From Rhodopseudomonas palustris (GTDB lineage Bacteria > Pseudomonadota > Alphaproteobacteria > Rhizobiales > Xanthobacteraceae): a stretch of 64,000 bases of DNA. Positions 4,344 through 48,571 of the stretch are shown here, in pieces. Position 1 is the stretch's first letter. Each line of letters starts with the position of its first letter. The notes below the pieces were generated by a model. That model was given only the letters and a program-made list of their open reading frames with translations, was not told the origin of the DNA and made no database searches. The position numbers and the translations under genes are program-made. The stretch covers positions 1 through 64,000 of the forward strand of contig NZ_QYYD01000021.1 of NCBI RefSeq assembly GCF_003591005.1, written 5' to 3'.

Positions 4344-4348
4344 CAGCC

Positions 4349-27852: not shown

Positions 27853-27892
27853 GATAACCTCCCTGGACGTATTTTCGTAAAGCGTGATGCGC

Positions 27893-28519: not shown

Positions 28520-28553
28520 GATGACGGTTCTCGTTGCCTCGACCATGGGTTTA

Positions 28554-28567
28554 TATATGATCATATA
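28554..28567. promoter_or_regulatory. Candidate TetR operator TATATGATCATATA
   Basis: A perfect 14-base palindrome lies in the space between a TetR gene and a divergent phosphotransferase-fold gene. TetR proteins usually bind such palindromes in their own divergent promoter. The A/T-rich run stands out in GC-rich surroundings. Confidence 0.6.
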
Positions 28568-28624
28568 CCGAAAGTCGATGCGTCTGGCGTGGTGCATCGG
28601 TCAAAGTCGTGGAGAAGACCCAAG

Positions 28625-30550: not shown

Positions 30551-31247
<697 letters not shown>

Positions 31248-31255
<8 letters not shown>

Positions 31256-32042
31256 CGTCGGATCCGAGATAGGCGGTGATCACCTCGGGATGGCGGAACA
31301 CCTCCTCCGGCGCATCGACGGTGATAGGTCGCCCATCGACCAGCACCAAAGCGCGGCCGCACAGCGCCTTGATCACCGTCATGTCATGCTCCACGATAAC
31401 GACGGTGCGGCCCTGCGCCACCTTCTCGATCAGCGCGATGAAATCCGCGGTCTCGCGCCCGTTCATGCCGGCGGCGGGCTCGTCGAGGAACAGCAGCTTC
31501 GGATCGGACATCAACGCCACAGCCACCGCGAGGCGGCGCTGCACGCCGTAGGACAGCGTATTGCCGATGCGATCGCGATCCTGCGACAGGCCAGACATTG
31601 CCAGGACATCCTCGGCCTTGGCACGAAACGCGGCCATCTCGGTGCGATACGCCTCGCTGCCGACGATGCGACCGATCACCGAATGGGTGAAGCTGGCGTG
31701 GCGGCCGTACAGCAGATTGTCGTAGACGGTGGCCTCGCCGAACACGGCCGTGCGCTGGAACGTGCGCGCCACGCCGGAGCGTGCCACCACATGCGGGCTG
31801 ATCTTGCCGACGTCCTGCGCCAACACCTCGATCCGCCCCGAGGTCGGCTTGGTGATGCCGCAGAGGACGTCGAAGAACGTCGACTTGCCGGCGCCGTTCG
31901 GACCGATGATGCCGAACACCTCGCCCTCGCCCACTGTCAGGCTGACGCCGTTGAGCGCTACCACGCCGCCATAGCGTTTGACGATATCGATGGCGCGGAT
32001 CGCGACCGGCCGACCGCCCGTATCAGCGAGAGCTGTTTGCAC
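31248..32042 (-). CDS. LIV-type ABC transporter ATP-binding protein (LivG-like)
   Basis: A 264-residue ATPase. Walker A GPNGAGKST is at 47-55; the signature reads LSYGVQRRLAVAVAL, a LivG-type variation; Walker B is LLFLDEP. It overlaps the LivM-type gene by 20 bases and the LivF-type by 8. It provides the second nucleotide-binding subunit of the importer. Confidence 0.92.
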
Positions 32043-33051
32043 GGCGACCTCCCTTTAATCGCGACGCCAGGCTGGCGATGATCCTGTGCAGGCCGCCTGG
32101 CGCGAAAATCATGATGACCACGATCAGCAGCGAGAACACCAGCACGCGGACATTGGGATCGAGGTCGAGATAATACGGCAGGATGCTGAAGATCACCGCG
32201 CCGATGATCGGCCCGACCAGCAGCCCGGTGCCGCCGATCAGCACCGCCAGCAGCGCATCGACGGTGTTGGCGACGGAGAAAATCTCGGGGGTGACGATCT
32301 GCGTGTACGGCACGCACAACGCGCCGCCGAGCGCCGCGATCGGCGCGCTGAGCATGAACGCCTTCAGCCGCTGGCGGAACACGTCGACGCCGATCGACTG
32401 CGCAAGGTGGCGGTTCTGCCTCACGCTCTCGATTGCCGCGCCGAATTGCGACGAGCGCACCGCGTGCAGCAGCAGCACCATCGCGATCAGCACCGCGGCG
32501 CACACCCAGAAATAGGATCGCGGCTCGGTCATCAGCAGCGGGCCGAACTTGATCGGGGGGAAGCCGAAAATGCCGAGCGGACCTTCGGTGAGGTGCGTCA
32601 GGTTCAGCGCCGCCACCATCATCACGCCGGACAGGCCCCACGACACAATCGAGAAATAGGCGCCGGTCAGCCGCAGCGTCATCCAGCCGATCGCCGCCGC
32701 GGCCGCCGTCGACAGCAGCATGCCGACCAGGATCGTCACCTCGTAAGGCAGGCCGAACTTCACCATGCCGATGCCGACGCTGTAGGCGCCGAGGCCGAAG
32801 AACACGCATTGGCCGAGCGGCACTTCGCCGAGGCCGCCGAGCATCAGATTGAGGCTGAGCGCGAACAGCGCGAACGCACAGGTGTAGCCCGCGAGAGTGA
32901 TGACGAAGGTGTTGGTGACGAACAGCCCGAACACGACCGCGACAGCGGCGGCCGCAAGCGTCAATGCCGGCACTGCCCACGATCGACGGGGCACGGACGG
33001 CGTCATCATGTCGGGCTGCGCCGCAGCCACATTTTCAACAGAGCCGGTCAT
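32023..33051 (-). CDS. LIV-type ABC transporter permease (LivM-like)
   Basis: A 342-residue membrane protein with about ten hydrophobic helices after a 25-residue cytoplasmic start. LGQCVFFGLGAYSVG, GAYFSIVSWGLSGVMM and LIGGTGLLVGPIIG are the LivM hallmarks. It follows the LivH-type gene by 1 base and overlaps the LivG-type gene by 20 bases. Confidence 0.92.
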   Translation of the reverse strand: MTGSVENVAAAQPDMMTPSVPRRSWAVPALTLAAAAVAVVFGLFVTNTFVITLAGYTCAFALFALSLNLMLGGLGEVPLGQCVFFGLGAYSVGIGMVKFGLPYEVTILVGMLLSTAAAAAIGWMTLRLTGAYFSIVSWGLSGVMMVAALNLTHLTEGPLGIFGFPPIKFGPLLMTEPRSYFWVCAAVLIAMVLLLHAVRSSQFGAAIESVRQNRHLAQSIGVDVFRQRLKAFMLSAPIAALGGALCVPYTQIVTPEIFSVANTVDALLAVLIGGTGLLVGPIIGAVIFSILPYYLDLDPNVRVLVFSLLIVVIMIFAPGGLHRIIASLASRLKGGRRANSSR

Positions 33052-33052
33052 C

Positions 33053-33928
33053 TCAATGCCTGTAGAGTTGCGGGCGGCCCATCAGCCCCTGCGGCCACAG
33101 CAACAGCACCGCGATCACCAGCGTCCATCCGAGCGCCGGCGTCCACGACACCGACACGTAGGTCTCGAACAGCGCATTGGCGACGCCGATCAGCAGCGCG
33201 CCGAGCATCGCACCGGTGATGCTGCCCATGCCGCCGAGGATCACCACGGTGAAGCCTGTGATCAGCGTGGCGTGACCCATCGTCGGATAGGCGGTGACAA
33301 TCGGCGTCAGCAGAGCGCCGGCGAGGCCTGCCGCGGCGACGCCGACCACGAAGGAGAGGCTGCGGATCAGCGGCACGTTGATGCCCGAATACAGCGCCCC
33401 GCGTGGATTCTGCGCCACCGCAAGCACCTGCTGCCCTTTGACTGAGAACCGCAGCCAAAGACCGAACGCCGCCAACACCGCGATCGAAACGACCAGCACG
33501 AAGATGCGCTGCCCGGTAATCAGGATGTTCGCGACGGACAGCGTGGTCTGTGAGAACGGCGAGCTGATCGGATGCGGATCCGGCCCGAACAACAGAATCA
33601 GCGCCGCCACGAAGGCCTGCCCGAGCGCGAAGGTGACGATCAGGGAGCCGTGCGAGCCCTCCTCGTAGACCACGCGGCGGATCACCAGATATTCGGTGAC
33701 GAAACCGACGATCGCTGTGGCCACGAAGGCGATCGGCAGCGACACCAGATATGGCACGCCGTAGCTGTTCAGCAGGAACACCGCATAGGCGCCGATCGCG
33801 AAGAACGCGCCGTGGGCGAAGTTGGCGATGTGCAGGATGCCGAACACCAGCGTCAGGCCGACGGCGATCACCGCGTAGCTGGCGCCGAGCACCAGCCCGT
33901 TGACCAGCGTTTGGATCAGAAGCGTCAT
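33053..33928 (-). CDS. LIV-type ABC transporter permease (LivH-like)
   Basis: A 291-residue membrane protein with about eight helices. GLTLVFGILHIANFAHGAFF is the LivH signature near residues 24-43 and LGGMGSITGAMLGA is the coupling region. It lies 25 bases after the binding-protein gene and pairs with the LivM-type permease. Confidence 0.92.
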   Translation of the reverse strand: MTLLIQTLVNGLVLGASYAVIAVGLTLVFGILHIANFAHGAFFAIGAYAVFLLNSYGVPYLVSLPIAFVATAIVGFVTEYLVIRRVVYEEGSHGSLIVTFALGQAFVAALILLFGPDPHPISSPFSQTTLSVANILITGQRIFVLVVSIAVLAAFGLWLRFSVKGQQVLAVAQNPRGALYSGINVPLIRSLSFVVGVAAAGLAGALLTPIVTAYPTMGHATLITGFTVVILGGMGSITGAMLGALLIGVANALFETYVSVSWTPALGWTLVIAVLLLWPQGLMGRPQLYRH

Positions 33929-33953
33929 GCCCGGCTCCTTGCGATCGCACTCA

Positions 33954-35093
33954 TCACTGCACGCGGACCACTTCGAGCTGGGTCAGCTTGCCGCCCTTGA
34001 CCTGCTGAATATAGAAATTCGGCGCCCGCGCCCGGCCCTTGGCGTCGAATTTCAGCTCGCCGCGCGGCGACGGCCAGGCGTTGTCGCGCAGCGTCTTGGA
34101 GATCTTGTCGTAGTCGGAATCGGTGCCGGCCTTGTCCATCGCGGCGGCGATCGTCTTGACGGCCTCATAGATCACCAGATTGCCCTTGCCGGGGTCGAGA
34201 TTGTACTTCTTCCGATAGGCCTCGATGAACGCATTCGCCTTGTCGTCCGCGCCCGGCACCATGAAGATTTCGCCGGTGATGACGCCGTCCATCGCGCCTT
34301 CCGACGGCGCCAGCATGCCGGGCACCACGACGCCGGGCGACATCACTTCCTTGGGGAAGCCGCCGAGCTGACGGATCTGCTTCCACAGCTGCGCGGCGCG
34401 CGCCGGATAGGCATCCGCGACGTAGATCATCTCCGGATTGAGCGATTTGATCTTGGTGATGATCGAGGTGAAATCGTTGGTCTCGGCGTCGTAGGTCGAG
34501 ACGTTGACGAGTTCGATATTCGCCTTCTTCAGGCTCTCGCGCAGCAGTTCCAGCACCGTCTTGTTGAATTCGGTGTTCTCGCCCATGTAGGCGACGGTCT
34601 TCGGCTTCAGCTTGTCGACGATATAGGCGTTGAACGACATCGCGTTGGCCGAGACGGTGTTGTTGACCTGAAACAGCCATGGGCTGCCCTGCTCGGTGAT
34701 CGCGTCGGCCTGCGCACCGGCGTTGACCTGCAGGATCCTGTTGCGCGTCACCGATGATTCCGCCAGCACTACCGAGCTGTTGGTGCCGCCGGTGATCGCC
34801 TTGACGCGGCCCATCGAAATCAGCTTCTGCACCGCGGCGACGCCGCCCTGCGGCGAGCCCTTCTCGTCCTCGAACACCAGTTCGATCTTGCGGCCGCCGA
34901 GAATGCCGCCGGCGTTGTTGATCTCTTCGACCGCCAGCTCGGCGCCGCGCTTGGAGTCCTGCCCGTAGGTCGCGGCCGCGCCGGACAGCGGCGCTGCGAT
35001 GCCGATCCGCACGGTTTCTTGCGCGATCGCGCCGGAGCTCAAGAAGCCGAGCGCGAGGGCGACCGCGGCGAGGCGCTTCGTCGAGTTATGCAT
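33954..35093 (-). CDS. LIV-type ABC transporter substrate-binding protein
   Basis: A 379-residue periplasmic receptor with a Sec leader (NSTKRLAAVALALGFLSSGAIAQE). The mature start VRIGIAAPLSGAAATYGQDSKRGAELAVEEINNAGG matches Peripla_BP_6. It lies between a dienelactone hydrolase gene (30 bases before) and the LivH-type gene. The operon promoter region, about 0.9 kb upstream before the hydrolase, carries two TTCAC-N4-GTGAA elements. The ligand is likely the pathway acid of the 29.7-44.7 kb block. Confidence 0.9.
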   Translation of the reverse strand: MHNSTKRLAAVALALGFLSSGAIAQETVRIGIAAPLSGAAATYGQDSKRGAELAVEEINNAGGILGGRKIELVFEDEKGSPQGGVAAVQKLISMGRVKAITGGTNSSVVLAESSVTRNRILQVNAGAQADAITEQGSPWLFQVNNTVSANAMSFNAYIVDKLKPKTVAYMGENTEFNKTVLELLRESLKKANIELVNVSTYDAETNDFTSIITKIKSLNPEMIYVADAYPARAAQLWKQIRQLGGFPKEVMSPGVVVPGMLAPSEGAMDGVITGEIFMVPGADDKANAFIEAYRKKYNLDPGKGNLVIYEAVKTIAAAMDKAGTDSDYDKISKTLRDNAWPSPRGELKFDAKGRARAPNFYIQQVKGGKLTQLEVVRVQ

Positions 35094-35123: not shown

Positions 35124-35867
35124 TCAGAGATTGCGGCGGAACAGCGCGAACAGCCGCTCCCAGTGCCGCTCAGCGCTGTCTTTGTGATAAAGGCGGCGGG
35201 TCGGAAACGCGAAGCCGTGTTCGGATTCCGGATACATTTCGATGTGGCCGTTGACGCCGCTCTCGTCGAAGATCTGTTTGAGCTTCTGTAGATCTTCGTT
35301 GCTGATGTAGTGGTCGTGCTCGGCGCAGGCGAGATACATCTCGCCCTTGATCTTGTGCGCAGCGAGGTGCGCGGAGTCCGGCGCGTCGGTGATCAGGCGC
35401 GCGCCGTAGACCGAGGCCGAGGCGCCAACGCGGTCCGCGAAGGTGCCGGCGTTACGCAGCACATAGCGGCCGCTCATGCAGTAGCCGACCATCCCCACCT
35501 TGCCGGGCCGCGCCATCTTGTCGGCGTCGAGATACTTGAACAGCTCCGCCGTGTCCTCCTCCACCATCGTGTTGGTGAGGTGGCGATTGAGCTTCCACAA
35601 CAATTCGATCTTGTCGGTGTAGGCCGGGTCGCGCAGCCGGTTGGCGTCGAGATCGACATAGCGCGCCAGCCGGTAGTACATGTTCGGCATGATCACGTAA
35701 TAGCCGACCGTGGCGATGCGGCGACACATGTCGGCGAGCTCATCGCGCACGCCGACCGAATCCATGTTGAAGATCACCACCGGGAATGGGCCATCGCCGT
35801 CCGGATGGTAGATGTAAGTGTTCATCGAGCCGTCGCGCGTCGCGATATCGACGACCGATTCCTTCAT
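35124..35867 (-). CDS. Dienelactone hydrolase family protein
   Basis: A 247-residue alpha/beta hydrolase of the dienelactone hydrolase family. The nucleophile elbow GYCMSGRY near residue 118 carries Cys in the GxCxG context, the acid is in AEHDHY and the His in SEHGFAFP. It would hydrolyse a lactone or ester. The ATG at 35867 is preceded by GGAGAGG; the longer frame upstream would run across the regulatory elements and lacks similarity. It heads the operon that continues into the LIV transporter and the LigI-like lactonase, so two lactone-type hydrolases bracket the importer. Confidence 0.88.
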   Translation of the reverse strand: MKESVVDIATRDGSMNTYIYHPDGDGPFPVVIFNMDSVGVRDELADMCRRIATVGYYVIMPNMYYRLARYVDLDANRLRDPAYTDKIELLWKLNRHLTNTMVEEDTAELFKYLDADKMARPGKVGMVGYCMSGRYVLRNAGTFADRVGASASVYGARLITDAPDSAHLAAHKIKGEMYLACAEHDHYISNEDLQKLKQIFDESGVNGHIEMYPESEHGFAFPTRRLYHKDSAERHWERLFALFRRNL

Positions 35868-35968
35868 GAATCCTCTCCGAATTTTGTTTGTTGGCGCATC
35901 GCGCAAGTTGGATCGATTATGCGCCCGCGACCTTCGCCGTCCAGCGGATTCAGGATCGCGCCCAAACT

Positions 35969-35982
35969 TCCACATTCGTGAA
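35969..35982. promoter_or_regulatory. Candidate operator, TTCAC-N4-GTGAA family (one mismatch)
   Basis: TCCAC-ATTC-GTGAA matches the inverted repeat TTCAC-N4-GTGAA with one change. It lies about 100 bases before the dienelactone hydrolase start and 150 bases before the divergent crotonase start, 72 bases from a perfect copy at 36041. Confidence 0.5.
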
Positions 35983-36040
35983 AATCGCCGAAGCAGCACG
36001 TGACCGAACGTCGCCGCCGCGCCTGGGTAGCTGCCCAGAA

Positions 36041-36054
36041 TTCACGGATGTGAA
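36041..36054. promoter_or_regulatory. Candidate operator TTCAC-N4-GTGAA (perfect arms)
   Basis: TTCAC-GGAT-GTGAA has perfect 5-base arms and lies 78 bases before the crotonase ATG, in the divergent space shared with the dienelactone hydrolase operon. The same arms occur at 43337-43350 between two other genes of the block. Confidence 0.6.
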
Positions 36055-36131
36055 AGACGCCGCTCGCGGGCGAATTTGCTTGGCACCGCGCGCCCCGTCG
36101 CGATACGCGCGACCAGCACCGGAGGCTACTC

Positions 36132-36935
36132 ATGTCCAGCGAGCACATCCTCACGACGATCCAAGACCGCGTCGCCACCCTCACCTTTAATCACCCGGCG
36201 CAGATGAACGCCTGGGGCCCGGCGTTGGAAGCAGCATTGCGGGACGCGATCGCCGTATGCGCCGCGAATGACGAGGTGCGTGCGATCGTGCTGACCGGCG
36301 CGGGCCGCGCCTTCTGCGTCGGCGCCGAGATGGGCCGGCTGGCGTCCAACTCTTCCGCGTCGCAACCCGCCGCGGCCGCGGTGGTCCCGGAAACCGGCAC
36401 GGGCAATTTCGATCAGCGCTACAGCTATCTGCTCGATGTGCCGAAGCCGATCATCGCCGCGATCAACGGGCCGGTCGCGGGCGTGGGATTGTGCATCGCG
36501 CTGTATTGCGACCTCCGCTACATGGCGGCTGGCAACAAGATGTCGACCTCGTTCGCGCGCCGCGGCCTGGTCGCTGAGCACGGCAGTGCGTGGATGCTGA
36601 GCCGCCTGATCGGGCCGATGAACGCAGCCGACCTGCTGCTCTCGGCGCGCACCATCACGGCGGAGGACGCAGCCCAGATGGGGCTGGTCCGGGTGCTGCC
36701 GCAGGACGGCTTCCTCGCCGGCGTTCAGGCGATCGCGTCCGACCTCGCGAACCTGTCGTCGCCGCGATCGATGGGGATCATCAAGCGACAGCTCAACCTC
36801 GCGCCGTTCCAATCGCTGGCTGAGGCGACCAAGCTGGCGGACGACGAGATCGCCAAATGCCGCGGCACCGAAGACTTCAAGGAAGGCGTAGCGCACTTCG
36901 TCGAAAAACGCCGCCCCGCCTTCACCGGCCGCTGA
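36132..36935 (+). CDS. Enoyl-CoA hydratase/isomerase (crotonase) family protein
   Basis: A 267-residue crotonase. The first oxyanion segment is LTGAGRAFCVGAEMGRL; the second is GPVAGVGLCIALYCDLR at about residues 113-128, where the usual catalytic Glu (GGxxE pattern) is replaced by Ile. GLVAEHGSAWML contains a Glu near the second catalytic position. It has an insertion around residues 71-92 (Ser/Ala-rich). The gene stands alone on the plus strand, divergent from the dienelactone hydrolase operon and convergent with the other crotonase operon. Two TTCAC-type elements precede it. Confidence 0.87.
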   Translation: MSSEHILTTIQDRVATLTFNHPAQMNAWGPALEAALRDAIAVCAANDEVRAIVLTGAGRAFCVGAEMGRLASNSSASQPAAAAVVPETGTGNFDQRYSYLLDVPKPIIAAINGPVAGVGLCIALYCDLRYMAAGNKMSTSFARRGLVAEHGSAWMLSRLIGPMNAADLLLSARTITAEDAAQMGLVRVLPQDGFLAGVQAIASDLANLSSPRSMGIIKRQLNLAPFQSLAEATKLADDEIAKCRGTEDFKEGVAHFVEKRRPAFTGR

Positions 36936-37052
36936 GCGGCGCGGGGTCCGTTTGTTGGTTGCTTCAGTCGTTATGGCTTTCCAGGCGCACTGAGTCTTCA
37001 TCCTGAAAGGTCCGCCCCGATCGACGGCGTTCTGAATGGGGCGATTCTCTAT

Positions 37053-37147
37053 CCACGCATCATGCCCGGCCTTGTGCCGGGCATCGACGCCTTGCTGACG
37101 GGAGATGCAGAACAGGCGTGGATGGCCGGGACAAGCCCGGCCATGAC
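37053..37147. repeat. Two-hairpin intergenic palindromic repeat, copy B
   Basis: An inverted match of copy A at 80-175. It holds two perfect 9-base stems: ATGCCCGGC/GCCGGGCAT at 37062-37084 with loop CTTGT, and ATGGCCGGG/CCCGGCCAT at 37122-37144 with loop ACAAG, separated by a core with GAGATGCAG. It lies between two converging crotonase genes, where it may also act as a transcription-ending structure. Confidence 0.8.
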
Positions 37148-37191
37148 GAGACTCATTGCGATCTGAACGATCGCGGAAACTCCCAACTGCG

Positions 37192-37965
37192 CTAGCGCCC
37201 CTTGAAGTTCGCGACGCGGCGCTCGGCGGTGGCTTTGACGCCTTCCTTGAAGTCTTCGGTGTCGCGCAGGCGGTTCTGTTCCTGCAGTTCGTGGTCGGTC
37301 GCGGCGGCGATGCGGTCGGCGAGGCCGGCGCGCATCGTGGCGCGCGTCGAGAGCAGGCCGAGCGGCGAGCATTCGGCGATTTCGCTGGCGAGCTTCATGG
37401 CCTCGTCGCGCACCTGATCCTGCGGCACGCAGAGATTGGCCAGCCCCATCCGCAGCGCGTCTTCGCCGGTGACGCGGCGGCTGGTGTAGAACATCAGCTC
37501 GGCGTTGTTCTTGCCGATCAGTTCGGGAAGCGCGGTGGTGAGACCGAAGCCGGGGTGAAAGCCGAGCTTGGTGAAGTTCGCCGCAAAGCGGGCTTCCGGA
37601 CAGGTGACGCGGAAGTCCGCCGAGATGGCGAGGCCGAGCCCGCCGCCGATTGCGGCGCCCTGCACGGCCGCGACGATCGGCTTCCTGTTACGATAGATCC
37701 GGACCGCCTCGACATACAACTCGTTGCCGCCGCGCGTGCGGTTGGCAGTGGCCGGCGCGTTGGAGAAGTCCGCGCCGGCACAGAACGCCTTGCCCTGCGC
37801 GGCCAGCACCACTGCCCGGCAATTCGCATCGGCGTCGATGGCATCGAGCGCGTCGGCGATGTCCTTGATCAGCACCACGTCGAAGAAGTTCAGCGGTGGC
37901 CGGCGGATTTCGATGGTGGTGACGTGGCCATTGGCCTCGACATGGATGTCGCGCTGCGTGCTCAT
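37192..37965 (-). CDS. Enoyl-CoA hydratase/isomerase (crotonase) family protein
   Basis: A 257-residue crotonase. Oxyanion segments are AAQGKAFCAGADFSN and GAAIGGGLGLAISADFR; the first catalytic Glu position is Gly/Leu, and the later segment reads LGFHPGFGLTTALPELIG. The C-terminus EDFKEGVKATAERRVANFKGR is typical. The ATG at 37965 is used; an upstream extension would overlap the dehydrogenase gene. It is the last gene of the operon CoA-transferase, two dehydrogenases, crotonase, 17 bases after the dehydrogenase stop. Confidence 0.88.
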   Translation of the reverse strand: MSTQRDIHVEANGHVTTIEIRRPPLNFFDVVLIKDIADALDAIDADANCRAVVLAAQGKAFCAGADFSNAPATANRTRGGNELYVEAVRIYRNRKPIVAAVQGAAIGGGLGLAISADFRVTCPEARFAANFTKLGFHPGFGLTTALPELIGKNNAELMFYTSRRVTGEDALRMGLANLCVPQDQVRDEAMKLASEIAECSPLGLLSTRATMRAGLADRIAAATDHELQEQNRLRDTEDFKEGVKATAERRVANFKGR

Positions 37966-37982
37966 AGTGATGTCCTTTGTTG

Positions 37983-39143
37983 TCAGCGCAGGCCGAGCCC
38001 GCGCGCGATGATGCCGCGTAGCACCTCGGTGGTGCCGCCCTGGATGGTGAGCTTCGGCGCGATCTTGAGGTTGAAGGTGAGGCATTCGTCGAACGCGGCG
38101 TGATTGGAGGACTCGGGGTCGGCAAACGCCGCGAGTTCGCGCGCGCGGTGCGGCAATTGCTGCTCCCACAGCGTGCCCATGTCCTTGACGATGGCCGCTT
38201 CCACCACCGGCTCGCGCCCCGCGGCGAGCATGCCGGCGACCGACACCGACATGCGGCGCAGCGTGTGCAGCTGAGCGACCAGGCGCCCGATGCCTTCCGC
38301 GGCGCGGATATCCGGATTGGGACCGACAGCGCGCACGAGTTCGGTCAGCACCGCGTAGGTTTCGAGGAATCGCTCCGGCCCGCTGCGTTCATAGGCGAGC
38401 TCGGAGGTCGCCTGCTTCCACGCGCCGTCGATCTCGCCGAGTACGTGGTCATCGGGGATGAACGCGTTGTCGAACACCACCTCGTTGAATTCGCGCTGGC
38501 CGCTCATCTGCCCGATCGGATTGCAGGCGATGCCGGGCGTCTTCATGTCGACCAGGAACGAGGTCAGGCCGTGGCGCCGATTCTCCTTGGTCGACGGCGA
38601 CGTGCGGAACAGGCCGATCATGTAGTCGGAGACGTTGGCGTTGCTGGTCCAGATCTTGGTGCCGTTGACCGACCAGCCGCCGTCCGTCCGGGTCGCGCGC
38701 GTCTTTGCCGCGAACAGATCCGATCCGGAGTCCGGCTCGCTCATGCCGATGCAGAAGCTGATCTCGCCGCGGATGATACGCGGCAGGATGTCGGCTTTGA
38801 TCTTCTCCGAGCCGTAGCGGATGATGGTCGGGCCGCTCTGCCGATCCGCCACGAAGAAATGCCGCACCGGCGCATTGGCCACGCGCATCTCCTCGGTGAC
38901 GACGTAGCGCTCTAGGAAGCTGCGCTCCTGCCCGCCATATTGCTTCGGCCAGGTCATGCCGATCCAGCCGCGCGCGGCGACGCGCTTGGCGAAGTCCCTG
39001 GCCAATTCGGCGCTGCCGCCTTCGCGCTCCGGCGTGAAATGGCCGGCGGCGATTTCCTCCGCGAGAAACGCGCGGACGTCGGCGCGCAGTTTCTGGCAAT
39101 GCTCCGGCAGGCGAATGGGATCGAAGCGCAGCGCTGCGGTCAT
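37983..39143 (-). CDS. Acyl-CoA dehydrogenase (FadE-type subunit 1)
   Basis: A 386-residue flavin dehydrogenase. Segments SFCIGMSEPDSGSDL and VNGTKIWTSNA are the flavin/substrate loops, and ELAYERSGPERFLE contains the Glu seen as catalytic base in FadE-type members. It lies next to a second, shorter and more divergent dehydrogenase; such pairs often form alpha2beta2 enzymes for sterol, cyclic or branched acyl-CoAs. The ATG at 39143 has AGGAGA before it. The gap to the partner gene is 14 bases. Confidence 0.9.
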   Translation of the reverse strand: MTAALRFDPIRLPEHCQKLRADVRAFLAEEIAAGHFTPEREGGSAELARDFAKRVAARGWIGMTWPKQYGGQERSFLERYVVTEEMRVANAPVRHFFVADRQSGPTIIRYGSEKIKADILPRIIRGEISFCIGMSEPDSGSDLFAAKTRATRTDGGWSVNGTKIWTSNANVSDYMIGLFRTSPSTKENRRHGLTSFLVDMKTPGIACNPIGQMSGQREFNEVVFDNAFIPDDHVLGEIDGAWKQATSELAYERSGPERFLETYAVLTELVRAVGPNPDIRAAEGIGRLVAQLHTLRRMSVSVAGMLAAGREPVVEAAIVKDMGTLWEQQLPHRARELAAFADPESSNHAAFDECLTFNLKIAPKLTIQGGTTEVLRGIIARGLGLR

Positions 39144-39157
39144 AGATGTTCTCCTGC

Positions 39158-40228
39158 TTAGCGAGATGCCACGAGCGGCCACAACTCATCGGCGCCATGC
39201 TCGGTCACGAACCGGCCGAGCTCTGCCGCCCAATGACTTTCGGAGCCGAAATCGTCGCGCCACGACAATGCGCGCAGCGAATAGCGATGCAGCACATGCT
39301 CGTCGGTGTAGCCGATGGCGCCATGGACCTGATGCGCGATGCCGGTCGCCGTCTCGGCAGCCTCGCCGCAGCGGATTTTTGCGGATGCGATCTCGAGCAG
39401 CGCTTCATCGCTCCCGAGCGGCAGCGTTGCGATGGTCTGCGCCGCCGAGTTCGCCGCGCTAACCGCCGCCGCGACTTCGCCGGCGAGCCGCGCGAGATTG
39501 TGCTGCACCGCCTGGTATTTCGCGATCTTCTTTTCGAACGCGACGCGCTCGCCAGCGTAGCGCACGGAAATCTCCAGCAGCGTCTCGAGCGCGCCTGCGA
39601 TCTGCTGGCAACGCACCGCGCTGCCCATCAGCGCGAGTTGCCGCATATCGAAGTCACCGGGCGCGTCCGCGGCCGCTACCGGCTGAACGCGATCGAACAC
39701 CACATCGTCGCTCGGATCGCCGGCGAGCGACGAACCCTGCCCGATGCTGCAGGCGCTGCGCTCGACCAGCGCGATCGTCACGCCCTCCCCTTCTGCCTTG
39801 GACGCGGCCACAACGATCAGCTGGGCGTCGCGGGCAAACGGCACGCGTTGCGCGGTGCCGCTGATCGAACCATCAGCCGCGATCCGGCAAGGCCCGCGCG
39901 GCCCGCTCGGCGCCAGGGTCATCGTGCCCTGCGGCGCGGCGATGCCGGCCCGCGCCAGCAGCCAGCCAGCCAGCATCGTCTCGGCGAGCGGGACGGCGAG
40001 CGCCGCACGCCCGGCGGCACGCAAAACGCCGAAGCCCTCTTCAAGGCTGACGCCGGCGCCGCCATGCGTTTCGTCGACCCACGACAGCAGCAGTCCATTG
40101 TCGGCCAGCGCCTGCAGCAGCGGCGCTTTCCAACGCTCGTCCTTCGTGGCGATGACGGTTTGCGGATCGGCGAGATCGCGGAAGATGCGCTCGGCCGTCT
40201 CCACGACGATCAACTCATCGTCGGACAT
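39158..40228 (-). CDS. Acyl-CoA dehydrogenase (divergent partner subunit)
   Basis: A 356-residue acyl-CoA dehydrogenase-like protein. The helical N-terminus contains WVDETHGGAGVSLEEGFGVLRAAGR read in parts, and the C-terminal domain has YAGERVAFEKKIAKYQAVQHNLA and AIGYTDEHVLHRY. The YERSGPERFLE-type catalytic Glu segment of its neighbour is absent, so it is probably the non-catalytic partner of a heteromeric enzyme. The ATG at 40228 has AAGGAG 9 bases before it. It sits between the CoA-transferase and the other dehydrogenase. Confidence 0.87.
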   Translation of the reverse strand: MSDDELIVVETAERIFRDLADPQTVIATKDERWKAPLLQALADNGLLLSWVDETHGGAGVSLEEGFGVLRAAGRAALAVPLAETMLAGWLLARAGIAAPQGTMTLAPSGPRGPCRIAADGSISGTAQRVPFARDAQLIVVAASKAEGEGVTIALVERSACSIGQGSSLAGDPSDDVVFDRVQPVAAADAPGDFDMRQLALMGSAVRCQQIAGALETLLEISVRYAGERVAFEKKIAKYQAVQHNLARLAGEVAAAVSAANSAAQTIATLPLGSDEALLEIASAKIRCGEAAETATGIAHQVHGAIGYTDEHVLHRYSLRALSWRDDFGSESHWAAELGRFVTEHGADELWPLVASR

Positions 40229-40261
40229 GACATGGCTCCTTGAGAACAAAGATCAGTTCGC

Positions 40262-41500
40262 TCACGCCGTCGCGGCCTGATGCGGCGGTTCGGGCGTGGC
40301 GACGACGCCGTCGGCTTCGAGCGAGGCGATATCGGCTGCGCCGAGGCCGAGATATTCGGCGAGGATCTCGTGCGTGTGCTGGCTGAGGCGCGGGGACGGC
40401 CGATCATCGGCCGGATCGGCGCCATGGATACGCAGCGGACTGCCCGGCACCACGATGCGGCCGAATTGCGGGTGATCGATCCAGCGCAGCATGCCGCGCT
40501 CGTGCATGTGTTTGTCGTTGGTGACCTCGATCAGGTCGCGCACCGGCGCCGACGGCACCTTGAACTTGCCGAACACCCTGAAGGCTTCCGCCTTGGTGTG
40601 GCGCGAGGTCCACTCCGAAATGATGCGGTCGACCTCGTCGATATGGACGACGCGGGCGGGCTTCGAAGCAAACCGCGGATCGCCGATCAGATCCTTACGG
40701 TCGATCGCGCCGAGCAGGTTCGCCCAATGCGTCTCGTTGATGCCGATGATGGCGATGAAACCATCCGACGTCGGATAGACGTTATACGGCGCGGCCGCGA
40801 GTCCGCCGTGGCGATTGCCGGTGCGCGGCGGCGCGATGTTCTTGTCGTAGACGAAGGCGAGATTGGACGCGAGCGTCGGATACACCGTCTCCTGCATCGC
40901 GACTTCGACCAGGCGGCCCGCGCCGGTGAAAGTGCGCTCGTACAGCGCGGTCATGATTGCCGCGTAGAGATGAATGCCGCTGAGAAAGTCCACCACGGCG
41001 GGCCCGCATTTCACCGGCGGACCATCCGGAAAGCCCGTGACGCTCATCAGCCCCGACGCGGCCTGCACGGTGATATCCATCGCAAGATTGTCGCGGTCCG
41101 GGCCGGACAAGCCGTAGCCCGAACCCGACGCGTAGATCAGCCGCGGATTGATCGCGGAGAGCACCTCCCAGCCGACGCCGAGCTTGTCCATCACGCCCGG
41201 CGCGTAGTTCTCCAGCAGCACGTCGGCCTGCGCGACCAGCTTCTTGAGAATGTCCTTGCCGCGCGGGCTTTTCAGATCGAGCGTGATGCCGCGTTTGTTG
41301 GCGTTCAACATGGCGAACGGAACAGCCGCGCCCTTGCTGACATTGACGCGCTGCCGGATCGGTTCACCTGCGAGCGGCTCGATCTTGATGACGTTGGCGC
41401 CGGCCTGCGCCATCAGGAACGTGGCGTAAGGTCCCTGATAGACCTGGCCGAGATCAACGACGGTCACCCCGTCGAGCGGTCGATTTTTGCGATCTGCCAC
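40262..41500 (-). CDS. CaiB/BaiF family CoA-transferase
   Basis: A 412-residue family III CoA-transferase. It begins LDGVTVVDLGQVYQGPYATFLMAQAGANVIKIEP, and the catalytic Asp is in NLAMDITVQAASGLM around residue 143. It would load CoA from a donor thioester onto a carboxylic acid, replacing an ATP-using ligase, which is absent from this block. It starts the operon with two acyl-CoA dehydrogenases and a crotonase (gap 33 bases to the next gene). The 140 bases before it hold a GTGAAAA half of the TTCAC-N4-GTGAA element at 41623. Confidence 0.9.
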   Translation of the reverse strand: MADRKNRPLDGVTVVDLGQVYQGPYATFLMAQAGANVIKIEPLAGEPIRQRVNVSKGAAVPFAMLNANKRGITLDLKSPRGKDILKKLVAQADVLLENYAPGVMDKLGVGWEVLSAINPRLIYASGSGYGLSGPDRDNLAMDITVQAASGLMSVTGFPDGPPVKCGPAVVDFLSGIHLYAAIMTALYERTFTGAGRLVEVAMQETVYPTLASNLAFVYDKNIAPPRTGNRHGGLAAAPYNVYPTSDGFIAIIGINETHWANLLGAIDRKDLIGDPRFASKPARVVHIDEVDRIISEWTSRHTKAEAFRVFGKFKVPSAPVRDLIEVTNDKHMHERGMLRWIDHPQFGRIVVPGSPLRIHGADPADDRPSPRLSQHTHEILAEYLGLGAADIASLEADGVVATPEPPHQAATA

Positions 41501-41622
41501 GATTCAACTACTCATCTGCGCGAGGCGTCGACGAACGCGCGCTCGCTTCACCGATCGTCAATGTGTGAGACCGCCCCGCGATAATCCAGCGGAAACGGCG
41601 CGCCGGGCTCATTTGCATATCC

Positions 41623-41627
41623 GTGAA
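41623..41627. promoter_or_regulatory. Half-site of the TTCAC-N4-GTGAA element (weak)
   Basis: GTGAA, continuing as GTGAAAAA, lies 123 bases before the CoA-transferase start, but the left arm reads TGCAT instead of TTCAC. It may be a degenerate operator of the CoA-transferase operon or chance. Confidence 0.2.
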
Positions 41628-41640
41628 AAACGCGGCCTTG

Positions 41641-42087
41641 CTATTTGGCAGCGCGCACCGCGGCGGTCGACGATGCGGTTGCGATCAGCCGATCGTCGGC
41701 GTCGCGAAGTTCGGCCTCGAGGAACGCGATGGTGCGGCCGATGCGAACCACCTTGCCGTACGACCTGTAAGTTCCCGGATGCGCGGCGAGCAGAAACGCC
41801 ACCTTGATCTCGAGGCTGGCGACCGACGTGCCGGGATCGGACAGGAAGTGACACGCCGTCGCCATCGCCGCGTCTAGCCATCCGGTGACGATGCCGCCCT
41901 GCACGATGCCGCCTCTCGGATGTCCCGGCACCGAATGGCAATGGCGCGTTTCAGCTAGCCACTCCATCGTCGCGCGGCGCAACGTCTCGTCGTAGCCGAT
42001 CAGCCGGCCGTTCAGCAGATCCCACGCCGGCGGGTGCCGCGCCTGGATCATCGCCACGATCTCGGCGACGCTGTGAGTCTCAGCCAC
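41641..42087 (-). CDS. PaaI-type acyl-CoA thioesterase (hotdog fold)
   Basis: A 148-residue hotdog protein. The core GGIVQGGIVTGWLDAAMATAC is the PaaI-type active-site segment, followed by ASLEIKVAFLLAAHPGTYR. It would hydrolyse acyl-CoA thioesters, perhaps rescuing CoA from dead-end intermediates. The start is a GTG that overlaps the reductase stop by 8 bases and has GGAGGG before it; the frame is open for 79 more codons inside the reductase gene without similarity. The operon is reductase then thioesterase. Confidence 0.85.
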   Translation of the reverse strand: MAETHSVAEIVAMIQARHPPAWDLLNGRLIGYDETLRRATMEWLAETRHCHSVPGHPRGGIVQGGIVTGWLDAAMATACHFLSDPGTSVASLEIKVAFLLAAHPGTYRSYGKVVRIGRTIAFLEAELRDADDRLIATASSTAAVRAAK

Positions 42088-43258
42088 GCGACGCGCCCTC
42101 CTCGGCAAGGCCGCGCTGATAGGTCGACGGATTGCAACCGAAGCCGCGCGAGGCGCGCTTGGCGAGCCAATAACCGGCCTGCGCCGGCACGTCGGCATAG
42201 CGCGACGCGACGCCGAGTTTCTCGGCGGCGTCCATCGCCCAGTTCGGATTGTTGAGGAATTCGCGGCCGACCGCGACGAGATCGGCCTGGCCCTTTTGCA
42301 GAATGTCTTCGGCCTGGTCGCCATGGATGATCAGGCCGACCGCCATCGTCATGATATCGGCCTCGCGCTTGATCTGCTCGGCATAGGGCACCTGATATCC
42401 ATAGCGCGTCAGGCGGGCGAAGTTCGGCACCTTGCTGGTCGTGCCGCCGGTGCTGCAATCGATCACATCCACGCCGCGTGTCTTCAGCTCCTTGGCGAGC
42501 GCGACGTTCTCGGTCGGTCCCCACCCGGCATCGTCCTCGATCGACAGCCGCATGAACAGCGGCTTCTCGGCCGGCCAGTGCTGACGCACGCACTCGGCGA
42601 CCTCGAGCGCAAACCGCATCCGGTTGGCGAGCGATCCGCCGTATTCGTCGGTGCGCCGGTTCGACTCCGGCGACAGAAACGAATGGATCAGATAGCCGTG
42701 GGCGCCGTGCAGCTCGATCATGTCGAAGCCGCAGGCATGCGCCCTGGCGGCGGCGCGGCCCCAGGCGGCGACCGCCTCCGGAATTTCATCACGACGCAGC
42801 TCCCGCGGCGTTGTCCAGCCTTCGCCATACGGAATCGCGCTCGGCCCGATGATGTCCCAGTCGTCCCAATCCGCCACCTCAGGCACGCGCGACAGCGGCC
42901 CGTCGCCTTCCCAAGGACGCTTGCTCTTGCCCTTGCGGCCGGTATGGCCCAGTTGCAGGCCCGCCGCAGCTCCGTTGGATTTGATGAACGATGCGATCCG
43001 GGACAGGCCGGGAATGAATTTGTCGTCCCACAGCCCGAGGTCGCCGAGCGTGCCGCAGCCGCGCCGCTCCACCTTGGTCGATTCGACGATCACCAGACCG
43101 GCGCCACCCGCGGCGAAGCGGCCGACATTGACCAGATGCCAGTCGGTGACGAAGCCCGCTTCGCCCGAATATTGATGCATCGGCGCGACGACGACGCGGT
43201 TCTTCAACGTCAATCCTCGGATTTGCATCGGCGAGAACAGCAGCGGCGCCTCGGACAT
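42080..43258 (-). CDS. Old yellow enzyme-type NADH:flavin oxidoreductase
   Basis: A 392-residue FMN barrel. VVVAPMHQYSGEAGFVTDWHL is the N-terminal FMN site, read as PMHQYS; LQLGHTGRKG follows, and the substrate His/Asn-type pair lies in ELHGAHGYLIHSFLSP, with RTDEYGGSLANR typical of the YqjM/NamA group and xenobiotic reductases. VGREFLNNPNW closes the FMN site. It lacks the C-terminal iron-sulfur/FAD half of dienoyl-CoA reductases, so it is a single-domain ene-reductase. It would reduce an activated C=C bond. Divergent from a binding-protein gene, with a strong palindrome between them. Confidence 0.9.
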   Translation of the reverse strand: MSEAPLLFSPMQIRGLTLKNRVVVAPMHQYSGEAGFVTDWHLVNVGRFAAGGAGLVIVESTKVERRGCGTLGDLGLWDDKFIPGLSRIASFIKSNGAAAGLQLGHTGRKGKSKRPWEGDGPLSRVPEVADWDDWDIIGPSAIPYGEGWTTPRELRRDEIPEAVAAWGRAAARAHACGFDMIELHGAHGYLIHSFLSPESNRRTDEYGGSLANRMRFALEVAECVRQHWPAEKPLFMRLSIEDDAGWGPTENVALAKELKTRGVDVIDCSTGGTTSKVPNFARLTRYGYQVPYAEQIKREADIMTMAVGLIIHGDQAEDILQKGQADLVAVGREFLNNPNWAMDAAEKLGVASRYADVPAQAGYWLAKRASRGFGCNPSTYQRGLAEEGASRG

Positions 43259-43334
43259 TCGAACCTCCCGTGATTTTTGATCATCCTACGGCCCATCTAC
43301 GGCGCGCGCCATCCGCCACGTGTGAGCGCCGGAT

Positions 43335-43352
43335 TTTTCACGAACGTGAAAA
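43335..43352. promoter_or_regulatory. Candidate operator TTTTCACG-AA-CGTGAAAA
   Basis: Perfect 8-base arms flank a 2-base centre, 77 bases before the reductase start and 107 bases before the binding-protein start, in their divergent space. It contains the TTCAC-N4-GTGAA core seen at 35969 and 36041, and is the strongest copy. Confidence 0.7.
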
Positions 43353-43458
43353 TGGAAGGCGCAACGCCAAAAGCGGCGGAAGCTGATCGCCTTCCCCGGC
43401 ACGGCCCGTTAGCGTTGCCGAAAACACGTCGCAACGACAATGAACGGGAGTAATCGCC

Positions 43459-44673
43459 ATGCGATCCGCCTTGCTGCTCACTGCCTTGTTGGCCCTGGTC
43501 TTGCCCTCAACGGCTGACGCCCAGGGAGCCAGGAAATACGGACCCGGCGTCACCGATACCGAGATCAAGATCGGCAACATCATGCCCTACAGCGGGCCGG
43601 CCTCCTCCTTCGGCAACATCGGCAAGGCCGAGGCGCAATTCTTCAAGATGATCAACGACAATGGCGGCATCAACGGCCGCAAGATCAACTTCGTGTCCTA
43701 TGATGACGGCTACAGCCCGCCGAAAACGGTCGAGCAGGCGCGCAAGCTGGTGGAGGACGACGAGGTGCTGTTCCTGTTCAACCCGATGGGTACGGCGGGG
43801 AACAGCGCTATCAGGAAGTATCTCAATCAGAAAATGGTGCCGCAGCTGTTCGTCGGCTCGGGCGCGACGAAGTTCAACGATCCATCGGCATTCCCCTGGA
43901 CGATGGGATGGCTTCCCAGCTACCAGGCTGAGGCACGCATCTATGCGCAATACATCCTCAAGAATATTCCGGATGCGAAAATCGGAATCCTTTATCAGAA
44001 CGACGATCTCGGCAAGGATTTCGTCCAGGGCCTGAACGATGGCCTGGGCGGAAAGATCAAGCCGGTGATGCAGATTTCCTACGAGTTCACTGACCCGACC
44101 GTCGATTCGCAGATCTCGCGCCTTCAGGCCGCAGGCGTCAACGTTCTGCTGAACGCATCGACGCCGAAATTCGCCGCCCAGGCGATCCGGCGGGTCGCCA
44201 CGTTGAAGTGGGACGTCACTCACTTTCTGGTCGCGCTGTCATCGTCGGTCGGCGCCACGATCCGTCCCGCGGGCCCGGAGAACGCCGTTGGCCTGATCTC
44301 GAGTTCCTACGCGAAAGACCCTACAGATCCGAACTGGGCCGACGATCCGGGCTTCAAACGCTATCAGCAGTTCATTACGAACTATCTGGATGGCGCCGAC
44401 AAATCCGATCCCGCACTGCCTTACGCATTCAATGCCGGCAATCTGATCGTCAAGGTGCTGCAGCAGTGCGGCGACGAACTCACGCGCGAGAACGTCATGA
44501 AGCAGGCGGCCGATCTCAAGAACGTCGAGCTCGACATGCTGCTCCCCGGCATCAAGATCAACACCTCGGCGTCGGACTATGAACCGATCGACCAGGTGCA
44601 GATGATGCGCTTTGACGGCGCCTCATGGGTCCGGTTCGGAGACATGTACACTGCAGGCATTGCTTCGAACTAA
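43459..44673 (+). CDS. LIV-type ABC transporter substrate-binding protein (no adjacent channel)
   Basis: A 404-residue periplasmic receptor with a Sec leader (RSALLLTALLALVLPSTADAQ). YGPGVTDTEIKIGNIMPYSGPASSFGNIGKAEAQFFKMIND marks the amide/aromatic-acid subgroup of Peripla_BP_6. No permease is adjacent; the importer at 30.6-33.9 kb, whose operon carries the same operator type, could serve it. GGGAG precedes the ATG. It lies divergent from the ene-reductase gene. Confidence 0.9.
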   Translation: MRSALLLTALLALVLPSTADAQGARKYGPGVTDTEIKIGNIMPYSGPASSFGNIGKAEAQFFKMINDNGGINGRKINFVSYDDGYSPPKTVEQARKLVEDDEVLFLFNPMGTAGNSAIRKYLNQKMVPQLFVGSGATKFNDPSAFPWTMGWLPSYQAEARIYAQYILKNIPDAKIGILYQNDDLGKDFVQGLNDGLGGKIKPVMQISYEFTDPTVDSQISRLQAAGVNVLLNASTPKFAAQAIRRVATLKWDVTHFLVALSSSVGATIRPAGPENAVGLISSSYAKDPTDPNWADDPGFKRYQQFITNYLDGADKSDPALPYAFNAGNLIVKVLQQCGDELTRENVMKQAADLKNVELDMLLPGIKINTSASDYEPIDQVQMMRFDGASWVRFGDMYTAGIASN

Positions 44674-44874: not shown

Positions 44875-46889
<2,015 letters not shown>

Positions 46890-46897
46890 AGCTGTTC

Positions 46898-48571
46898 CTA
46901 CAACGGCATGTTGTCGTGCTTCTTGGCCGGGACTTCCATCTTCTTGTCGCGCAGCATCGCGAGCGCGCGGGCGATCCGGCGCCTCGTGGCGTGCGGCATG
47001 ATGACGTCGTCGATGTAGCCGCGTTCGGCGGCGACGAACGGCGACAGGAAGCGGTCCTCGTATTCCTTGGTACGGGCCGCGATCTTGTCGGGGTCGTTCA
47101 TGTCCTGGCGGAAGATGATCTCGACCGCGCCCTTGGCGCCCATCACGGCGATTTGCGCGGTCGGCCAGGCGTAGTTGATGTCGGCGCCGATCTCCTTCGA
47201 CGCCATGACGTCGAACGCGCCGCCATAGGCCTTGCGGGTGATCAGCGTCACCAGCGGCACGGTGCATTGCGAGAACGCGAACAAGAGCTTGGCGCCGTGC
47301 TTGATCAGGCCGCCGTATTCCTGCGCGGTGCCCGGCAGGAAGCCCGGCACGTCAACAAAGGTCACGATCGGGATGTTGAAGGCGTCGCAGAACCGCACGA
47401 AGCGTGCCGCCTTGCGTGAGGCGTCGCTGTCGAGCACGCCGGCCAGCACCATCGGCTGGTTGGCGACGAAGCCGACGGTACGGCCGGCGACGCGGCCGAA
47501 GCCGGTGATGATGTTCTTGGCGAACGTATCCTGCAGCTCGAAGAAGTCGCCCTCGTCCACGACCTTCAGGATCAGCTCCTTCATGTCGTAGGGCTTGTTC
47601 GGATTGTCCGGGATCAGCGTGTCGAGCGAAAAGTCCTCGCGCTCGATGTCGTCGAAGCTCGGCCATTCCGGCACGCCTTCGGACGAATTGGCCGGCAGGA
47701 AGTCGACCAGCCGGCGCATCTGCAGCAGCGTCTCGACGTCGTTCTCGAAGGCGCCGTCGGCGATCGAGGATTTGGTGGCGTGCACCGAGGCGCCGCCGAG
47801 TTCTTCCGGCGTCACCACCTCGTTGGTCACCGTCTTGACCACGTCGGGGCCGGTGACGAACATGTAGCTGGTGTTCTTCACCATGAAGATGAAGTCGGTC
47901 ATCGCCGGGGCGTAGACGTCGCCGCCGGCGCAGGGGCCCATGATGACGCTGATCTGCGGGATCACGCCGGACGCCTGCACCACGCGGCGGAATACGTAGG
48001 AGTAACCCGCGAGCGCCGCGACGCCCTCTTGGATGCGGGCGCCGCCGGCGTCGTAGAGGCCGATGATCGGCGCACGCGCCTTCAGCGCCATATCCTGGAT
48101 CTTGGTGATCTTCGCCGCATGCGTTTCGGACAATGAGCCGCCGAACACGGTGAAATCCTTGGCGAACACGAACACCTTGCGGCCGTTCACGGTGCCCCAG
48201 CCGGTGACCACACCGTCTCCCGGAATTTTGGTCTTCTCCATCCCGAATTCGGTCGAGCGGTGCTGGACGAACATGTCCATTTCCTCGAACGAATGCTTGT
48301 CGAGCAGCAGGTCGATCCGCTCCCGCGCGGTGAGGCGGCCGCGCGAGTGCTGCGCGTCGATGCGCTTCTCGCCGCCGCCGAGTTTGGCACCGGCGCGACG
48401 TTGTTCGAGGGCTTCGAGAACGGACCTCGAGCGGCGCGCCTTATCTATGAGTTTTGCCGAGTGGAGGCAGGTCGGTGCAGATGCCTTCGAAAACGTCGGC
48501 GGCCATGCCGATGGTCTCACCGAGGGTCGGATGCGGGTGAATGGTCTTGCCGATATCGACTGCATCGGCAC
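46898..48571 (-). CDS. pccB: Propionyl-CoA carboxylase beta subunit (start codon lost or displaced)
   Basis: A carboxyltransferase subunit. Family similarity begins at [17 protein letters not shown] (codon at about 48421) and continues unbroken through [31 protein letters not shown] and [16 protein letters not shown] to the end, about 510 residues as usual. There is no ATG, GTG or TTG close to the conserved beginning. The nearest in-frame starts, GTG 48520 and ATG 48571 (used as the limit here), lie inside the E3 gene in another frame and would add 33-50 unrelated residues. The next internal ATG, at 48280, would remove 47 conserved residues. It would act with PccA to make methylmalonyl-CoA. 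Confidence 0.8.

Follow-up and report, generated by a model that had tools for sequence, protein, structure and literature searches.

A 64,000-nucleotide stretch of a Rhodopseudomonas palustris contig (NZ_QYYD01000021.1, assembly GCF_003591005.1; hereafter the window) carries a catabolic block in which four promoter regions share the palindrome TTYCAY-N4-RTGRAA, some of the sites deviating by one or two letters. We propose that an IclR-family regulator encoded nearby, here called IclR1, uses this palindrome as its operator and, together with a ligand, would activate four transcription units. On comparison of promoters and proteins across genomes, we judge this reading to be probable. The units comprise a gene for a dienelactone-hydrolase-family protein (DLH) followed by a LIV-type importer and an amidohydrolase; a lone crotonase gene; a CoA-transferase family III gene (CaiB) followed by acyl-CoA dehydrogenases and ECH; and a gene for an OYE-family ene-reductase (OYE) paired with a thioesterase frame (Table 1).

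The palindromes of the catabolic block

The original prediction, made from the letters of the window, placed inverted repeats in the divergent spaces 35868-36131 and 43259-43458, and all of them were located there. The first space contains site 1 (TTCCACATTCGTGAAA, core TCCAC-ATTC-GTGAA at 35969-35982) and site 2 (ATTCACGGATGTGAAA, core TTCAC-GGAT-GTGAA at 36041-36054). The second contains site 4 (TTTCACGAACGTGAAA), whose symmetry reaches over 43335-43352 as TTTTCACG-AA-CGTGAAAA. A GTGAAAA half-site had also been noted at 41623, before the CoA-transferase operon; the letters are present, but they form the right arm (41623-41629) of a whole, degenerate palindrome, site 3 (TTGCATATCCGTGAAA). The four-base centres of the window sites are GAAC, ATTC, GGAT and ATCC.

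Conservation of the sites in related genomes

The block is patchily distributed. Eleven other genomes contain it (Afipia sp. Root123D2, Chelatococcus reniformis, the metagenome-assembled genome LIN-12, five Bradyrhizobium entries, one of them metagenome-assembled, and G222, G1146 and G1211, also of the genus Bradyrhizobium), with DLH orthologues at 68-72% identity. No DLH orthologue was detected in 15 genomes of the same genus as the window (best match 48%). Samples of the order and of the class contained it in 2 of 397 genomes (own included) and in 1 of 385, namely our own, and it was present in 8 of the 242 genomes in the genus of G222. Among plasmids, the DLH region had a single distant match.

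Comparison of orthologous promoters, a check proposed with the original prediction, revealed the palindrome to be kept before the same transcription units in relatives. The distance from its beginning to the DLH start is 127-137 bp in all 11 other genomes, with shuffle p values of at most 0.0175 in nine of them and 0.05 in Chelatococcus. For OYE the corresponding distance is 87-93 bp in eight of the nine genomes, the window included, that encode an OYE at least 71% identical. Site 3 is conserved letter for letter within a 19-base run identical to Afipia, upstream of the same gene, while its flanks are little conserved. A site precedes CaiB in each of the four genomes where this gene is served by a separate promoter (window, Afipia, G1211 and LIN-12), and in none of the eight where CaiB follows LivF; this contrast is a natural control. 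Additionally, the space between the crotonase and IclR genes contains a clear palindrome in Afipia, G1211 and LIN-12 and a weaker one in Chelatococcus (p about 0.05).

The motif was also recovered without the window. A de novo dyad search covering all inverted 5-mers with spacers of 0-12 was conducted on 16 promoters of other genomes; here, and in the spacing analysis described below, repetition of close relatives was limited by admitting, apart from G1211, a single Bradyrhizobium block genome (G222), and G1211 was represented without its 48% OYE. TTTCA-N6-TGAAA, which is the same palindrome, ranked second (z 8.5), occurring in 15 of the 16 promoters against a mean of 1.45 in shuffled sets. 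The top dyad, TTACA-N6-TGTAA, has the same layout and was found in 10 promoters (z 8.9); the largest z over 40 shuffles was 3.4.

A paralogous DLH family provided a further control. Among 66 of its upstream regions (one of 67 loci, L112, was dropped, its match lying at a contig edge), none reached 11 of the 12 motif letters and one reached 10, compared with at least 10 letters in all 12 block DLH upstream regions. This second family (46-51% identity; L067-L133, with a member in our own genome on contig C54 at 3624-4349) is common in the fetched Bradyrhizobium loci and is without the palindrome.

Promoter geometry

The distance from each palindrome to the best-scoring promoter-like element was assessed in 17 promoters. 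The Chelatococcus OYE promoter (no site) and both receptor promoters (poor scores) were left out, and site 2 was taken for the window crotonase, though site 1 scores higher. Averaged over the set, -35/-10-like elements score best when they start 32.5 bp past the centre of the palindrome: the mean is 7.12 of 12 there and 3.7 elsewhere, and none of 500 shuffles gave a peak as high. The best -35-like element fell within 1 bp of this distance in 13 of the 17 promoters. The four window promoters alone scored 7.5 at +32.5 against 3.47, and inclusion of the receptor promoters gave a mean of 6.67 over 21.

In the window, site 1 is followed in the direction of DLH by TGGACG-N16-CATAAT (35943-35916), the single match of the consensus scan, and site 2 in the direction of the crotonase gene by TTGGCA (36080-36085) with a poor -10; both lie 32.5 bp from the respective centre. 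Site 4 is followed towards OYE by ATGGCG-N18-TAGGAT, which a stricter scan misses. When plain TTGACA was used as the -35, the spacing of about +32 persisted for DLH, OYE and three of the four CaiB promoters. The two sites of 35868-36131 are thus read as one operator for each of the two divergent promoters.

A palindrome centred near -68, at a fixed place upstream of the -35, fits an activator, and the geometry, calculated from predicted starts, points to activation as the sign of control. The same regulon and regulator could alternatively operate by repression, with IclR1 leaving its operators when substrate is present. Many IclR-family proteins are repressors, and the site that relatives carry ahead of IclR1 has its centre about 22-27 bp upstream of the gene's start, near the start codon, where binding would block transcription. 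The palindromes of the target genes, however, keep a fixed distance of about 32 bp to a -35 that lies downstream of them, a better fit to activation, and we regard repression of the targets as unlikely.

The original prediction had assigned all of these genes to one regulon. Its four units, the LIV importer with its hydrolases, the crotonase, the OYE/thioesterase pair and the CoA-transferase group, are upheld by conserved, positioned sites in relatives; membership of the extra receptor gene at 43459 is less well supported. An Afipia receptor gene 51.5% identical to it, located on another contig outside the block, is preceded by the palindrome TTTCACATCCGTGAAA, which speaks for membership, while the missing -35 phase and the lack of a site in Chelatococcus speak against it.

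IclR1 as the candidate regulator

No regulator had been evident to the original prediction. An IclR-family gene is nevertheless present at 27037-27852, and its counterparts lie within the block of all 11 relatives. The N-terminal helix-turn-helix of IclR1 matches PF09339 with 37.1 bits (cut-off 22), and its C-terminal effector domain (residues 80-246) matches a putative IclR regulator of known structure (PDB 3d3o, E 2e-20), although no Pfam match to this domain was obtained at E 1e-5. The IclR gene occupies the gap between crotonase and DLH in nine of the 11 other genomes. In G1211 its neighbours are CaiB and DLH; in LIN-12 they are CaiB and the amidohydrolase gene preceding DLH, which leaves it one gene from DLH. 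Ten of the 11 thus have it directly beside DLH. This position is empty in the window. Instead, IclR1 lies behind a TetR-family gene, beginning 40 bp after its stop codon and about 1.8 kb past the end of the LIV operon, and thus appears to have been relocated. No counterpart of the relatives' IclR1 site was found in the IclR1/TetR region (27800-28700) at up to three mismatches.

In a tree of 21 proteins, IclR1 joined the block protein of LIN-12 with support of 94/86. Furthermore, its recognition helix reads YPVSSAS, as in the block-linked proteins. Block linkage, the tree and the letters of the recognition helix together make IclR1 the likely regulator of the block.

The genome encodes a paralogue, IclR2 (contig C18), by which the sites might be bound, alone or together with IclR1. 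With respect to the Afipia block IclR, IclR2 (54% identity) is as close as IclR1 (55%), and its own promoter possesses a related palindrome, TTCCATGGATATGGAA, an exact match to the pattern TTYCAYNNNNRTGRAA discussed below. Its recognition helix differs, however, reading YPTSSAA in the IclR2 proteins, and it clusters at 100/100 with four Bradyrhizobium proteins heading a paralogous amidohydrolase-CaiB-OYE set; those genomes keep a separate IclR1 in the block. Binding by IclR2 is consequently quite unlikely in our estimation. The IclR2 module itself (L139, 6113-10548) resembles the block in that a paralogous regulator is divergent from amidohydrolase, CaiB and OYE genes (63%, 64% and 49% identical to those of the window) with TTCCATGGATATGGAA in the divergent space, and differs in the recognition helix. 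Four Bradyrhizobium-genus genomes carry the module near the block. In our own genome, the 20 kb surrounding IclR2 yielded neither a LIV importer nor a DLH.

A regulator of another family, either the TetR protein encoded at 27893 or one encoded elsewhere, could also bind the sites, the linkage to IclR genes then being coincidental. The TetR gene does adjoin IclR1 in the window, but its start carries a different palindrome, TATATGATCATATA, as the original prediction had suggested; it occurs once in the window at up to one mismatch and is a likely TetR operator. Moreover, tblastn with the TetR protein yielded no counterpart in the fetched block stretches of relatives, whereas IclR1 has one in 11 of 11. 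We consider a regulator of another family improbable.

Frequency of the motif

Taken alone, the window offers weak and indecisive evidence for the motif. At up to one mismatch, TTCACNNNNGTGAA has four matches against 1.02 expected, a count reached by 4 of 100 shuffles, and the fourth match (33240) falls within the LivH gene. Scans of the whole genome (5.62 Mb in 91 contigs), with the reversed pattern as control, gave a stronger case. The exact 10-base pattern occurs at five places (control 2), two of them in the block, while TTTCACNNNNGTGAAA at up to one mismatch also occurs at five, three in the block and the remaining two inside reading frames. Exact TTYCAYNNNNRTGRAA was found at four places (control 0): 35968, 43336, C18:24177, which is the promoter of the paralogous IclR gene, and C6:116785, within a frame. 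The letters of TTYCAYNNNNRTGRAA were chosen after relatives had shown which positions vary, and this count is partly circular because the pattern was shaped in part by the two sites of the window; tests on other genomes are free of this circularity.

Looser scans dilute the signal (53 places against 23; 50 against 19). Those at one or two mismatches, in our own genome and in Afipia, were rejected as dominated by background, the matches, where examined, often being inside reading frames. Of 20 loci around own-genome matches, a mechanical frame caller placed nine in frames; that of site 1 (L046) was called in-frame only through an upstream GTG of the DLH frame, the start shared with relatives being 35867.

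Exact matches to TTYCAYNNNNRTGRAA outside the block were examined at 15 places in other genomes and one in our own, only part of all such matches. Of six in Afipia, five are in-frame and the sixth stands before the receptor homologue; of five in G1211, two are in frames and two are intergenic without obvious link. The two each in G1146 and G1260 comprise three inside frames and one (L192) overlapping a frame end. The fifth match in G1211, TTTCACTATTGTGAAA, lies 5 bp before the start of an unrelated IclR gene (28% identity; L189, 1787-2535) that adjoins CaiB-like and crotonase-like genes.

That the palindromes are products of chance or coding bias, as the shuffled windows and the many in-frame genome matches at two mismatches might be taken to indicate, is scarcely credible given that the motif was recovered independently from other genomes, at fixed positions, and given the natural CaiB control and the clean paralogue control.

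Several observations nonetheless weigh against activation of the block by IclR1 through these sites. With regard to conservation, the LIN-12 DLH site is no better than shuffles (p 0.45), the upstream regions of OYE and SBP2 in Chelatococcus hold no site, and the palindrome of the crotonase/IclR space is weak in most Bradyrhizobium (p 0.005-0.13, mostly about 0.1). Internal operon genes, used as a control, gave p<0.05 in 2 of 77 rows, both LivM. Exact TTYCAYNNNNRTGRAA is missing from the block in five of the seven Bradyrhizobium-genus block genomes searched, and seven genomes without the block still hold 0-5 exact matches each. With regard to geometry, the best element lies elsewhere in 4 of the 17 promoters, and the two receptor promoters (43459 and its Afipia homologue) do not have a -35 element at the distance typical of the others. 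TTGGCA was accepted as a -35 only once it had been seen in the data, and with plain TTGACA the crotonase rows lose the +32 spacing. Finally, IclR1 shares only 49-55% identity with the block-linked proteins and sits on a long branch, its 94/86 support falls short of the tree program's own mark, and its gene is no longer adjacent to the block targets.

Comparison with known IclR systems

The operator consensus of IclR group 1 is GKTYCRYW3-4RYGRAMC (Suvorova and Gelfand 2021, PMC8222616). All 12 arm letters of the block motif are compatible with it (TTYCAY/RTGRAA against KTYCRY/RYGRAM) and a four-base centre is allowed; conversely, the block motif is without the outer G/C and its centre is not all W. 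The survey lists LIV transporters and CoA-thioester catabolism among regulated functions and gives -22 as the commonest operator position (PMC8222616), to which the -22 to -27 position of the relatives' IclR1 site is near, as for self-repression. Tandem sites 18-22 bp apart are common in the group, though not universal (PMC8222616). In our set, tandem partners score highest on average at a separation of 20 bp (5.69, compared with about 3.8), a figure drawn mostly from close Bradyrhizobium with spaces counted from both sides, and no partner scoring at least 8 was found in the window. The present orthologous group and a fixed -35 distance were not met in the accessible portions of the survey text (PMC8222616).

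IclR-type regulators of aromatic catabolism such as PcaU, PobR and CatR control the transport and breakdown of organic acids, as IclR1 would. Several such regulators are activators. Their motif class, GTNCG-N5-6-CGNAC, differs from the block palindrome (PMC8222616). Three-box sites have been reported for PcaU, PobR and HmgR (PMC8222616), and in five of six lineages the DLH promoters described here similarly have a CTG[AT]A half, located 20 bp past the palindrome. Thus, motif and gene set fit known IclR group 1 regulons as far as the survey is accessible; we found no earlier description of this block, motif or regulon in literature judged mostly from titles and abstract openings.

Genes of the block and its surroundings

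Table 1. Positions of the sites and genes discussed, in window coordinates.
Feature	Coordinates	Strand	Basis or remark
IclR1, IclR family, proposed regulator	27037-27852	-	PF09339; PDB 3d3o; groups with LIN-12 block IclR (94/86)
TetR-family gene, just before IclR1	27893-28597	-	PF00440; start uncertain
TATATGATCATATA, palindrome unlike those of the block	28554-28567		At TetR gene start
Amidohydrolase	29675-30529	-	PF04909; PDB 4d8l, E 7e-43
LIV-type importer	30551-35093	-	Pfam for SBP, LivG, LivF
LivF	30551-31255	-	
LivG	31248-32042	-	
LivM	32023-33051	-	
LivH	33053-33928	-	
SBP	33954-35093	-	
DLH	35124-35867	-	PF01738; start set by alignment with relatives
Site 1, TTCCACATTCGTGAAA	35968-35983		Proposed operator of DLH-LIV operon (minus strand); exact TTYCAYNNNNRTGRAA
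Site 2, ATTCACGGATGTGAAA	36040-36055		Proposed operator of crotonase gene (plus strand)
Lone crotonase (enoyl-CoA hydratase family)	36132-36935	+	PF00378
ECH	37192-38169	-	Pfam; start uncertain
Acyl-CoA dehydrogenase	37983-39182	-	Pfam
Acyl-CoA dehydrogenase	39158-40249	-	Pfam
CoA-transferase family III (CaiB)	40262-41500	-	Pfam
Site 3, TTGCATATCCGTGAAA	41613-41628		Proposed operator of CoA-transferase operon; identical in Afipia; counterparts in G1211, LIN-12
Thioesterase frame	41641-42324	-	TIGR00369, PF03061
OYE-family ene-reductase	42080-43258	-	PF00724; PDB 7o0t, E 3e-94
Site 4, TTTCACGAACGTGAAA	43336-43351		Proposed operator of OYE/thioesterase, perhaps also of receptor gene 43459; 12/12 letters
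SBP2, extra periplasmic receptor	43459-44673	+	PF13458

LivH and LivM were assigned by position and by similarity to their counterparts in relatives. The CoA-transferase/dehydrogenases/ECH group spans 37192-41500, and homology of the thioesterase is limited to the last part of its frame (about 140 aa in relatives). The nearest solved relatives of the amidohydrolase are 2-pyrone-4,6-dicarboxylate hydrolases and those of OYE are YqjM/XenA-like ene-reductases, which suggests, rather than proves, that the pathway substrate is a cyclic or lactone-type acid.

Downstream of the block lies a biotin-dependent acyl-CoA carboxylase set (44875-48571). A plus-strand frame (28626-29671) separates the TetR gene from the amidohydrolase gene; its Afipia homologue (43%, L180) adjoins an acyl-CoA dehydrogenase gene and a frame that resembles a TetR gene.

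Proposed mechanism and meaning

We propose that a dimer of IclR1 binds each promoter about 68 bp upstream of the transcription start, its ligand probably being the pathway substrate or an intermediate; at the DLH promoter a second dimer may bind 20 bp downstream. Binding would activate DLH-LIV-amidohydrolase via site 1, the crotonase via site 2, the CoA-transferase/dehydrogenases/ECH group via site 3, and OYE/thioesterase, perhaps with the receptor at 43459, via site 4. The block as a whole would import an organic acid, convert it to a CoA thioester and degrade it. In relatives, IclR1 probably limits its own synthesis via the site near its own start, a site that appears to have been lost in the window.

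More tentatively, and with considerable doubt, we suggest that IclR1 moved into the TetR transcription unit, its own operator being lost and those of its targets kept. A self-limiting local switch may in this way have become subordinate to TetR, with the block opening only when both signals are present: if true, the TetR ligand would permit IclR1 synthesis and the IclR1 ligand would then open the block.

In this way an anonymous motif gains a named candidate regulator, four promoters of predicted geometry and a natural control, and can be tested as a regulon; the regulon would group the genes of one pathway. The fixed spacing of 32.5 bp offers a simple activation prediction for a group of IclR proteins, and a regulator that was apparently relocated while its targets kept their sites would be a useful case of regulatory rewiring.

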